From NCBI GenBank assembly GCA_026003755.1, contig BPHV01000001.1, positions 718,393 to 782,392 on the forward strand: a DNA stretch of 64,000 bases, written 5' to 3'. Shown one piece after another: positions 22,018 to 25,612 of this stretch (positions are counted from its first letter, which is position 1; each line of letters starts with the position of its first letter). Source of the stretch: Candidatus Roseilinea sp. GTDB taxonomy: Bacteria > Chloroflexota > Anaerolineae > J036 > Brachytrichaceae. Made by a program: the position numbers and the translations under genes. The notes beneath the pieces are model-generated. The model saw only the letters and a list, made by a program, of their open reading frames with translations. It had not been told where the DNA came from and did not search any database.

Positions 22018-22685
22018 TCAGTCTATGCGATACCCTACCCCGCGCACGGTCTGCAAGTGCACAGGGTGAGAGGGGTCTTTTTCGATCTTCTCGCGCAGCC
22101 AGCGCACATGCACATCCACCGTGCGCATGTCGCCTTCAAAGTCGTAGCCCCACACCTGCGTAATGAGAAATTCGCGCGAGAGCACGGCGCCTTTATTGCG
22201 CATGAGCGTGGCGAGTAGCTCGAACTCCTTGTGACTGAGCTTGATCTCCTTATCGCCCAGGAAGACGCGCCGCGAGACCAGGTCCAGTTGCACGTCGCCG
22301 GCCCGCAACAGGCTCTCCATGCGCTTGGGTGTGCGCCGCAAGGCGGCTCGGATGCGCGCAGTCAGCTCGGGCAAGCTGAACGGCTTCACCACGTAATCGT
22401 CGGCGCCGTTATCCAACCCGATCACGCGGTCGATCTCGCCGGCGCGCGCGGTCAGCAGGATGATCGCCATGTTCGACTCGCGCCGCAAGATGCGACACAG
22501 CGACAGGCCATCCAAGCCGGGCAGCATCACGTCCAACACGCAAATGTCCGGTTGCTCGCGCCGCGCTATCTCCAAACCGTCATCGCCACTGGTGGCCGTG
22601 ATGACCGTATAGCCCTCGCTCTCCAGATGTCGAGCGAGTAAATCGAGCAGAATTGTTTCGTCTTCGACAATCAGAACCTTGGCAT
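22018..22685 (-). CDS. OmpR/PhoB-type response regulator, one missing base at codon 3
   Basis: About 222 aa after correction. ATGCCAAGG at 22685 is read as ATG CCA AAG with one lost A, restoring MPKVLIVEDE, the standard receiver start; without this the frame has no plausible start codon. The phospho-acceptor Asp is in ICVLDVMLPG, the conserved Thr in IILLTARAGEIDRVIGLDNGADDYVVKPF with the Lys. The winged-helix domain ends HVRWLREKIEKDPSHPVHLQTVRGVGYRID. It lies 69 bp downstream of phoU on the same strand, suggesting a PhoB/PhoP-like role. No sensor kinase gene is adjacent. Confidence 0.9.
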
Positions 22686-22754
22686 ATCTGCGTCACAATC
22701 CCAGGCGCAAACGCCGGCCGACGACTCGACTCGGCCATGCGCAATGACTACAGA

Positions 22755-23438
22755 TCACTCGGCCGGAGCGGGCTTGTAATCCCCCAGTTCCGCGGTCACG
22801 GCAAAGATCACCCGTTCGCACAGATTAGTCGCCCTATCGGCAATGCGCTCCAGGTTATGCGCAACCCAGAGCAAATATGTTGATTGCGTGATCGTCTTCG
22901 CATCCTGCATCATGAATGTCAACAACTCGCGCAGAACCTGCACATACAGCTCGTCCACTTCTTGATCGCGCGCGAAGATCGCCTTCGCAGCCTCGGCATC
23001 CATCCGCACGAACGCATCCAGCGCATTCCGAATCATCTCGCGCGCGATTGCTTGCATGCGCGGGATGTCAATGAGCGGTTTGACTAACGGCTCATCGCCG
23101 ATTCGAATGGCGATAGCAGCGATGCCGCTGGCGTGATCGGCGATGCGCTCCAGTTCGCCGGCCATGTGAATTGCGGCGACGATGCAGCGCAGGTCTCTCG
23201 CCGCCGGCTGCTGCATCGCAATCGTGCGCACACACTCAGACTCGACCCGATAACGCAGCGCGTTGATGCGCTGATCCGCCTCGATGACTTGGTGCGCCAG
23301 CGACAGATCACGATCCTTGAGCGCGCGAACCGCATTGGCGATCTGTTCTTCGACCAGGCTCCCCATGCGCAGAATGTCGTTGCGAATCTCAGCGATGTCG
23401 TGATCGAGCGCCGAGCGGGTGTGTAGAGCACTTGACAT
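22755..23438 (-). CDS. phoU: Phosphate-signalling protein PhoU
   Basis: 227 aa, two PhoU three-helix repeats. Each carries the acidic metal-binding box: HMAGELERIADHASGIA near residue 90 and WVAHNLERIADRATNLCERV near 195. PhoU links the Pst transporter to the phosphate sensor kinase and keeps the Pho regulon off in high phosphate. It is the first gene of the phoU-response regulator unit, with candidate PHO boxes directly upstream. A TATAAA (23450-23455) ends 11 nt before the ATG. No pst genes are in the window. Confidence 0.94.
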   Translation of the reverse strand: MSSALHTRSALDHDIAEIRNDILRMGSLVEEQIANAVRALKDRDLSLAHQVIEADQRINALRYRVESECVRTIAMQQPAARDLRCIVAAIHMAGELERIADHASGIAAIAIRIGDEPLVKPLIDIPRMQAIAREMIRNALDAFVRMDAEAAKAIFARDQEVDELYVQVLRELLTFMMQDAKTITQSTYLLWVAHNLERIADRATNLCERVIFAVTAELGDYKPAPAE

Positions 23439-23449
23439 CTTAGCCTACT

Positions 23450-23481
23450 TTTATAGACACGTCCTGTTAAGCTAAAGTTAA
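23450..23481 (-). promoter_or_regulatory. phoU promoter with two 11-nt-spaced TTAAC repeats (candidate PHO box)
   Basis: On the minus strand, TTAACTTTAGC and TTAACAGGACG are adjacent 11-nt units (TTAAC at 23477-23481 and 23466-23470), ending 10 nt upstream of a -10 TATAAA (23450-23455). PhoP/PhoB-family regulators bind such 11-nt direct repeats in place of a -35. Inference from spacing and context. Confidence 0.52.
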
Positions 23482-23520
23482 TAAGAAGAAAAGAGAAGGT
23501 AAAACATCAAATGCAGATGG

Positions 23521-23553
23521 CTTAACTTGAAGTTCACTCGGATTTCACACCTC
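23521..23553 (+). promoter_or_regulatory. Three 11-nt direct repeats (candidate PHO box)
   Basis: CTTAACTTGAA, GTTCACTCGGA and TTTCACACCTC are consecutive 11-nt units sharing TT(A/C)AC at positions 2-6. The array is exactly 55 nt (5 x 11) in register with the GTTAA pair at 23466 and 23477. It ends 19 nt before the ATG at 23573, with a TATGTT in between (23559-23564). Confidence 0.5.
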
Positions 23554-23572
23554 AGCGCTATGTTTAATATGG

Positions 23573-23809
23573 ATGACCAGACAACTCCTTGATGAGACGA
23601 TCGCTTACTTGAGGAAGGAACTGACGAGCATCCATTACGACTTGACCTGGGCGGACGGGGCGCAAGCCGAATCCTTCCGTGTGCGACAAATGCGCTTGCT
23701 CGCAGAGCTAGATCGCCTGGAAGCGCTGCGACGGACGATGGCCGCGCCGGTTACGACGCGCAACCCCACATCCTCAGCATATTCCGCCAGCAGCATTTCG
23801 GCCGAATGA
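23573..23809 (+). CDS. Small hypothetical protein downstream of the candidate PHO box
   Basis: 78 aa. The first ~55 residues are predicted helical and charged (QLLDETIAYLRKELTSIHYDLTWAD..RVRQMRLLAELDRLEALRR), the rest a Ser/Thr-rich tail. No family is recognised. Support comes from its position after a credible promoter region and before a terminator-like hairpin. It is divergent from phoU and may belong to the same regulon. Confidence 0.5.
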   Translation: MTRQLLDETIAYLRKELTSIHYDLTWADGAQAESFRVRQMRLLAELDRLEALRRTMAAPVTTRNPTSSAYSASSISAE

Positions 23810-23815
23810 TAGAAC

Positions 23816-23855
23816 AGAGGGCAAACCCGCCTCGCCGAGACGTTTGCTCTTTTTT
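23816..23855 (+). terminator. Rho-independent-like terminator after the small gene
   Basis: GCAAAC (23821-23826) pairs with GTTTGC (23842-23847), extended by AGA/TCT across a GG bulge and followed by a run of six T. It ends at the 3' end of the convergent tRNA-Arg. Confidence 0.5.
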
Positions 23856-23926
23856 GCCCCTACGCAGATTCGAACTGCGATCTACGGCTCCGGAGGCCGG
23901 CGCTCTATCCATTGAGCTATAGGGGC
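23855..23926 (-). tRNA. tRNA-Arg (anticodon CCG)
   Basis: 72 nt cloverleaf on the minus strand: acceptor GCCCCTA/TAGGGGC with discriminator A, D-stem GCTC/GAGC, anticodon loop CTCCGGA (CCG), T-arm CGCAG-TTCGAAT-CTGCG. The outermost anticodon-stem pair is a C-T mismatch. No CCA is encoded. Confidence 0.93.
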
Positions 23927-23990
23927 ATGGCTGATCTTTGCCCCGATTGTAGCAGCGGTTGGGTGTACGTTCAATAGCAGCGCTACCAGG

Positions 23991-25573
23991 GGGTGCATTT
24001 CAGTTTTGGGGCAGGAGCGCACTCAAAAAGCGCGCAGATTGACCTCGCCCGCGTGAACATCCGAAGATCACGGACGTCGTCGTGGATTGACAGACCGGCA
24101 TCTCAGCGAGGGACGACAAGCCGCAGGCCGCTGCGGGCATAATGCGAGGACAGTTATATCCGGGAGGTGTGCCATGAAAGAGACCAGGGCGACGACACAG
24201 CGCAAGTCAGCGTCTTCGCCACGGCGAGGCGAGATGAAAGCGGTGCTGATGCGAGAAGCGGAGGCCGTGATCGATGAATTGCTGGACTGGAATGAACAGG
24301 CCGGCCAGCCGACGCTGACGCAGATCGAGGAGGTGATCCTGAAGCTGCGCAAGCGGATGAGCGAGGCGATGGCGGTCACCGTGATCGAGGCGCAAGAGGC
24401 GAGCCGCCCGGTGCCGGGGCCGGTCTGTCCGCAGTGCGGGCGGGAGATGCACTCCAAAGGCCGCAAGCGGAACACGGTCGAGAGCCGCGTGGGCAGCCTG
24501 TCCGTGCAGCGAGGATACTACTACTGTGAAGCCTGCCGCGTCGGGCTTTTCCCCCCTCGATCGGCAGCTGGCGGTGTGGGACAAGCACTGGAGCGAACAG
24601 GTGGCCAAGCAGGCGGTGTGGCTGAGCGGGCTGGTGACGTTTGAGGAAGCGGAGCGCATCCTGGGACAGGTGGGCGGGCTGGTCATGTCCGACAGCAGTG
24701 TGTGGCGGCGGGTGGCGGTATGGGGAGAGCGCTTTCGGGGGGGTAGAAGCCACACAACGCGCCCTGGCGGACGGCGGCGGGCGCACCGCCGAGGCGGCGA
24801 CCGTGCCGGGCAAGATGGGTGTCGCCCTGGACGGAGCAACGGTTCATGTGCGTGGCGAAGGCTGGAAGGAACTCAAGGTGGGGTGCGTGTTCGATGTCGT
24901 GCTACAGCCGACTTGGGATCGCCAGAGCGAGGAGTGGGTTGACACGGCCCACGCCGTCCGCGCCAGCTACGTCGCCCATCTGGGCGGGCCGGAACGGTTC
25001 GGCCAGGTGTTGTGGACGGCCGCCCAACGTCGCGGCTGGACGCAGGCACGTGACACCATCGCCTTGGGCGATGGCGCCGCGTGGATTTGGAATCTGGTCA
25101 GCGAGCACTTCTACGACAGCCGACAAGCCGTGGACTGGTATCACGCCAGCCAGCATCTGTGGCAGGTTGCTCACGGCCTGCACGCAGCAGGCAGCCCGGC
25201 GGCCCAGGCTTGGTATCGTGCCCACGAAACCCTCTTGTTCCAGGGCCATGCCGACCGGATTGCGGCTCGACTCCGTCAGGCCGCCCATACCCATCCCCAG
25301 CACGCCGAGATGCTACGGCGTGAAGCGGGCTACTTCGGGGACAACCGGCGACGCATGCAATACCAGAGCCTGCGCGAAGATGGCTGGCCGATCGGCAGCG
25401 GCGTGGTCGAGAGCGCCTGCAAGCAATTCCGTCATCGCTTCGCCGGTAGCGGGATGCGCTGGAGCCGTCCCGGCATCGAGCGTCTGCTCCCGATTCGGGC
25501 GGCCGTCATGGGTCACGCCTTTGACGCGATGTGGTCTGCTGCCTATTCTTCGCCCCCAAACTGAAATAGACCC
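23991..25573 (+). mobile_element. ISKra4-family-like insertion sequence with target duplication
   Basis: 1583 bp element. Terminal inverted repeats are GGGTGCATTTCAGTTTTGGG at the left and GGGTCTATTTCAGTTTGGGG at the right (complement); over the 22-bp ends 19 positions match. It is flanked by a 9-bp direct repeat GCTACCAGG (23982-23990 and 25574-25582), the expected target duplication. It carries one transposase gene in three frames. Insertion is between tRNA-Arg and the aspartate kinase gene and disrupts no recognisable gene. Intact ends and duplication suggest recent arrival. Confidence 0.88.
24174..25564 (+). CDS. ISKra4-family transposase, two frameshifts
   Basis: ATG 24174 follows a strong GGGAGGTG ribosome-binding site. 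The N-terminal part has two CxxC pairs (CPQCGREM and CEAC) forming a zinc finger. The catalytic part contains VALDGATVHVRGEGWKELKVGCVFD, IALGDGAAWIWNLVSEHF with a catalytic Asp, DWYHASQHLWQVAHGL, and WPIGSGVVESACKQFRHRFAGSGMRWSRPG with the Glu. Frame moves +1 at a C6 run near 24555 and +1 at a G7 run near 24740. These match the insertion errors seen elsewhere but could also be true inactivation or programmed shifting, which is known in some members. Confidence 0.85.
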
Positions 25574-25612
25574 GCTACCAGGCTACCAGAGGGCGTAGCG
25601 CTACACCCCGGC

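Follow-up and report, generated by a model that had tools for sequence, protein, structure and literature searches.

PhoB-type response regulators bind head to tail to 11-nt direct repeats, which together form the PHO box (PMC4415409). The cyanobacterial SphR box (CTTAACCT) consists of at least three 8-bp repeats joined by 3-bp linkers and precedes pst genes (PMC1906773), and RegX3 of the SenX3-RegX3 system is the mycobacterial phosphate response regulator (PMC4415409). Some very small proteins are also tied to phosphate control, for example the DUF1127 proteins that bind or act on PhoR (PMC12501420). A 2021 paper describes the Chloroflexota lineage studied here as represented solely by metagenome-derived genomes, all incomplete, and by enrichments still at a preliminary stage (PMC8446752), and we found no published Pho operator for it in the open-access literature.

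We analyzed a 64-kb stretch (hereafter, the window) of the genome of Candidatus Roseilinea sp. (3.34 Mb, five contigs), in which two arrays of TTAAC/TTCAC repeats lie between phoU and a divergent small gene. These arrays resemble the PHO boxes of Escherichia coli PhoB and Streptomyces coelicolor PhoP (GTTCACC) in that at least two 11-nt head-to-tail units lie before pst or phosphate-signalling genes, although the core is TTAAC/TTCAC rather than CTGTCAT, three or four units are often present, and the box is known here from sequence. They share with the SphR box the 11-nt period, the TTAAC core, the presence of three units, and the location at pst genes, whereas the phylum is different and the outer bases of the 8-mer are not conserved in the Roseilinea arrays. 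The design is of a well-known kind; the new element is its instance in this Chloroflexota lineage.

Divergent repeat arrays in the phoU spacer

The phoU gene (positions 22,755 to 23,438, minus strand) encodes a phosphate signalling complex protein (PF01895, 157.5 bits; TIGR02135, 211.6 bits against a curated cut-off of 130.25) that is 96% identical to PhoU of Candidatus Roseilinea sp. NK_OTU-006 (Anaerolineae, Chloroflexota). A gene for a 78-aa protein (23,573 to 23,809, plus strand) diverges from it across a spacer of 134 nt. Read on the phoU strand, the spacer shows TTTAC-N6-TTTTC-N6-TTAAC-N6-TTAAC-N10-TATAAA-N11-ATG. The proximal pair TTAAC-N6-TTAAC occupies 23,466 to 23,481 of the minus strand (units at 23,477–23,481 and 23,466–23,470) and is in phase with two weaker distal units at 23,488 to 23,503 (TTTAC at 23,499–23,503 and TTTTC at 23,488–23,492). 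The -10-like hexamer TATAAA (23,450 to 23,455, minus strand) lies 10 nt past the last unit, with the ATG 11 nt further downstream. In congeners, TATANN and its spacing are kept, and the distal units are conserved in most of the genus as TTYAC/TTYAT-N6-TTYTC-like sequences. Read toward the small gene, the plus strand shows TTAAC-N6-TTCAC-N6-TTCAC-N10-TATGTT-N8-ATG, with an array at 23,522 to 23,548 (TTAAC at 23,522–23,526, TTCAC at 23,533–23,537, and TTCAC at 23,544–23,548) followed after 10 nt by the hexamer TATGTT (23,559 to 23,564, plus strand) and, 8 nt later, the start codon at 23,573.

The two arrays thus sit on opposite strands, each aimed at its own gene, with a period of 11 nt and exactly 10 nt to a -10-like hexamer. 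No sigma-70 -35/-10 pair was found in the spacer, the -35 consensus being absent at both promoters, as expected of activator-dependent promoters. Since transcription from these -10 hexamers would begin within a few nucleotides of either start codon, the mRNAs are probably nearly leaderless.

The repeats are real and non-random. When the 134-nt spacer was shuffled 5000 times with its dinucleotide composition preserved, neither the three 11-nt-spaced TT(A/C)AC pairs nor the triple was ever reached, and three pairs at any spacing from 6 to 16 nt did not appear in 3000 shuffles. AT-rich repeats could in principle arise by chance in a GC-rich genome, given that the spacer is AT-rich and that the bare pair occurs approximately ten times in this genome without enrichment; this explanation is refuted by the composition-preserving shuffles together with the conservation of the arrays across genera and their recurrence at pstS, described below.

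An earlier note on this DNA had reported five repeat units in two 11-nt arrays, which the coordinates and shuffles confirmed, while overlooking that the strands are opposite, that both arrays have -10-like hexamers at 10 nt, and that the phoU side has two weaker units. It had also placed all units in a single 11-nt register over 88 nt. We dropped that reading: only the palindromic TTAA core fits it, and it is not conserved among relatives, in which the far array, counted from the start of phoU, begins at -110 (three species) or -111 (four other species). Because the distance between the arrays differs in this way while the internal period and the -10 distance stay fixed in congeners, the shared register is accidental, and from their sequence the arrays are best read as two operators, not one.

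Conservation of the promoter pattern at phoU and pstS

A stand-alone phoU gene with an array occurred in 13 genomes, nine from the genus itself and four from two other genera. The repeat pair was present in all 13 of these units, and the full pattern including the -10 hexamer in 9 of 13 (shuffle mean 0.08). In other genera, phoU directly follows pstB; in three genomes with this arrangement (G025, G026, and G027), an array of four or three units lies approximately 1 kb upstream of phoU, before the pstB-phoU stretch.

The motif recurred at pst genes, as the earlier note had proposed. The pstS gene of this genome, identified by TIGR02136, is preceded by TTAAA-N6-TTAAC-N10-TACAGT, and the pstS promoters of the family carried the pair in 19 of 21 cases and the full pattern in 16 of 21, compared with means of 1.15 (maximum 5) and 0.19 (maximum 2), respectively, in 500 shuffles. 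When spacers of 3 to 12 nt were scanned, 6 nt alone was favoured in all three gene sets, so that a 6-nt spacer after a 5-nt core, i.e., an 11-nt direct repeat, is the sole enriched spacing. Among -10 distances of 5 to 15 nt, 10 nt alone stood out in the three gene sets; the repeats accordingly keep a fixed place upstream of a -10 hexamer lacking a -35 consensus.

A weight matrix trained on 14 pstS sites only was then run over the window. The phoU promoter ranked first (22.15) and the small-gene promoter second (13.41), the next non-overlapping site scoring 5.04 once overlapping frames at the same spot were set aside. Because the training sites were picked with the motif already known, these matrix scores are inflated, and the comparison with shuffles, which is less so, is the fairer test. 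In the phoU neighbourhoods of more distant Chloroflexota, whose flanks seldom extend to pstS, the motif was not enriched over the control. A PHO box is missing from the genome's second phoU (G000 C1:115901-116533; L015 11899-12585), which encodes a 36%-identical PhoU and lies beside a ferredoxin gene and a xanthine-dehydrogenase-type gene.

The response regulator of the phoU unit

Directly after phoU lies a second gene of the same unit (22,018 to 22,683, minus strand), which the earlier note had called a PhoB-type regulator gene. The product belongs to the OmpR/PhoB family by Pfam, with a receiver domain (PF00072, Response_reg) and a winged-helix DNA-binding domain (PF00486, Trans_reg_C) both above their cut-offs. 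It scored 230.8 bits with the PhoB model TIGR02154, below the curated cut-off of 296.2, and 238 bits with each of the MtrA and YycF models, again below cut-off. Its best match among solved structures was RegX3 of Mycobacterium tuberculosis (PDB ID: 2oqr; E = 1.4e-59). Because the protein falls below the PhoB equivalog cut-off, we refer to it as PhoB/RegX3-type and not as PhoB. It is comparable to the SenX3-RegX3 system in that RegX3 is its closest solved relative, but its gene is linked to phoU instead of to a kinase gene: no histidine kinase or other sensor kinase gene adjoins the phoU-regulator unit (22,018–23,438).

The start of the regulator gene (22,675–22,695, minus strand) reads ATGCCAAGGTTC, and the frame is lost after four codons. 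Close relatives have ATGCCCAAGGTTC at this place and one has ATGCCAAAGGTTC; this assembly has one base fewer, possibly a sequencing error.

The arrays might instead bind another OmpR-family regulator, MtrA- or WalR-like, that controls phosphate genes only partly. The neighbouring regulator does fit the MtrA and YycF models about as well as the PhoB model, and OmpR-family motifs resemble one another. We nevertheless regard this as unlikely, because throughout the family such sites are concentrated at pstS, at phoU, and at other P-type transporters, and because the regulator gene is itself tied to phoU, which it follows in relatives that span four to five genera. Binding by the PhoB/RegX3-type neighbour is the reading that we retain.

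A family-restricted small gene with its own repeat array

Orthologs of the 78-aa protein were found in 20 of 28 genomes of the family, representing five of eight genera, and a phylum-wide sample yielded only borderline matches outside the family. The protein had no match in Pfam or NCBIfam, and a profile search against the PDB gave nothing significant. AlphaFold2 predicted, with high confidence, a two-helix hairpin (residues 2–26 and 29–57; mean pLDDT 83) with a disordered tail. Directly behind the gene is a probable intrinsic terminator (23,816 to 23,856, plus strand) with an 11-bp stem followed by TTTTTT (fold -13.1 kcal/mol, z only -1.2), from which we take the gene to be probably monocistronic. 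Further along, a tRNA-Arg(ccg) gene (23,854–23,927) lies beside a transposase-like gene (24,087–25,598, plus strand) that is split over two overlapping frames and weakly matches UPF0236.

The array upstream of the small gene could be conserved merely through the shared spacer, the phoU array alone being the Pho operator, and in several congeners the small gene does start approximately 100 nt from the array. The orientation of the array toward the small gene speaks against this, as do seven genomes of three other genera (G008, G009, G010, G012, G025, G026, and G027) in which the small gene lies away from the phoU-regulator unit and has kept the repeat pair or triple. In six of these (G008–G010 and G025–G027), the repeats end approximately 10 nt before a -10-like hexamer; in G012, the pair is present without a good -10 region. 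The box was not seen at the small gene of G011, where the upstream sequence is short and the contig end is near. Conservation through the spacer alone therefore appears very improbable. Since the box is kept where the gene has been relocated, membership of the small gene in the Pho regulon would be independent of the shared spacer; the relocated boxes are the strongest evidence that it is a putative Pho target in its own right, and they favour its placement in the regulon, which the earlier note had made from this one locus. In one of the genera with a relocated gene (g4; G008–G010, loci L083–L085), no more than a few kilobases separate the small gene from the second phoU, and the surrounding genes, judged by eye, include MFS- and chromate-transporter-like ones.

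By analogy, the hairpin protein might be a partner devoted to feedback on the phosphate-signalling proteins (PhoU, Pst, or the kinase) and thus a new small Pho regulator. We offer this as a guess, more doubtful than probable, modelled on the DUF1127 proteins that bind PhoR. Both are very small proteins tied to phosphate control, but DUF1127 is a different family, and the 78-aa protein is a two-helix hairpin without a Pfam match.

Other genes preceded by the boxes

Beyond pstS and phoU, boxes were present at further core Pho genes. A PhnS2/U2/T2-like transporter adjoining pst has TTAAC-N6-TTCAC-N6-TTAAA, which recurs in congeners, and a ugp-like operon has TTTAA-N6-TTAAT-N6-TTAAC-N10-TAGCCT, which recurs in two congeners; the permease and the binding protein of this operon best match UgpA and UgpB, both below cut-off. 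The recurrence that the earlier note had expected at ugp genes was seen at the ugp-like and phosphonate-type transporters, more weakly than at pst. A sulfatase-superfamily gene of this genome (C2:17749) is preceded by the pair plus a -10 hexamer.

Genome-wide tests were made as pattern searches. The scan for the bare pair that had been proposed gave no enrichment (10 matches of TTMAC-N6-TTMAC compared with 11 for the backwards control), whereas longer arrays, or the pair with a -10 hexamer, were enriched. Triples of the form TTHAH-N6-TTHAH-N6-TTHAH numbered 37 in the genus against 4 in the control. A stricter triple gave 90 against 71 in all genomes of the family and 58 against 4 without genera g2 and g6, which are AT-rich or laden with repeats and were excluded after the control counts had been seen; the pattern counts in these two genera do not exceed the controls and are uninformative.

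Two further occurrences were recorded. A conserved TTAAC-N6-TTTTA-like triple lies upstream of a secreted DUF5666 protein (G000 C2:727077 = L121; G017 C64:62504). In five congeners, a conserved TTCAC triple ends 14 nt short of a gene for a hybrid histidine kinase (L120, L095, L119, L115, and G017:C111:9288). This kinase was rejected as a PhoR candidate, a -10 at the fitting position and a close ortholog in this genome both being absent.

Proposed regulation and implications

The recurrence of the pattern at pstS, its conservation at phoU, and its presence at other P-type transporters support, at the sequence level, the Pho operator predicted by the earlier note. We consider it highly probable that the spacer comprises a divergent pair of PHO-box promoters driven by the PhoB/RegX3-type regulator under phosphate starvation; the identity of the binding regulator, the sign of regulation, and the dependence on phosphate are the parts of this proposal that we infer. 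Points that speak against it are the bare pair's lack of genome-wide enrichment, the sub-cut-off PhoB score of the regulator, the frame loss at its start in this assembly, the lack of a kinase gene in the unit, and the second phoU without a box. Under phosphate starvation, the phosphorylated regulator encoded after phoU would bind head to tail to the 11-nt repeats, contacting two strong and two weak units on the phoU side and three on the small-gene side. It would take the place of the missing -35 element and bring RNA polymerase to the -10 hexamer that lies 10 nt past the repeats, thereby raising the output of its own unit (phoU and the regulator gene, a positive autoregulation) and of the monocistronic small gene.

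The promoter model TTNAN-N6-TTNAN-N10-TANNNT would make the Pho regulon of this Chloroflexota lineage readable from sequence. It also places a family-restricted small protein in the putative regulon by evidence independent of location, and the main interest of the locus lies in this helical-hairpin protein as a candidate member of the phosphate response of the family.
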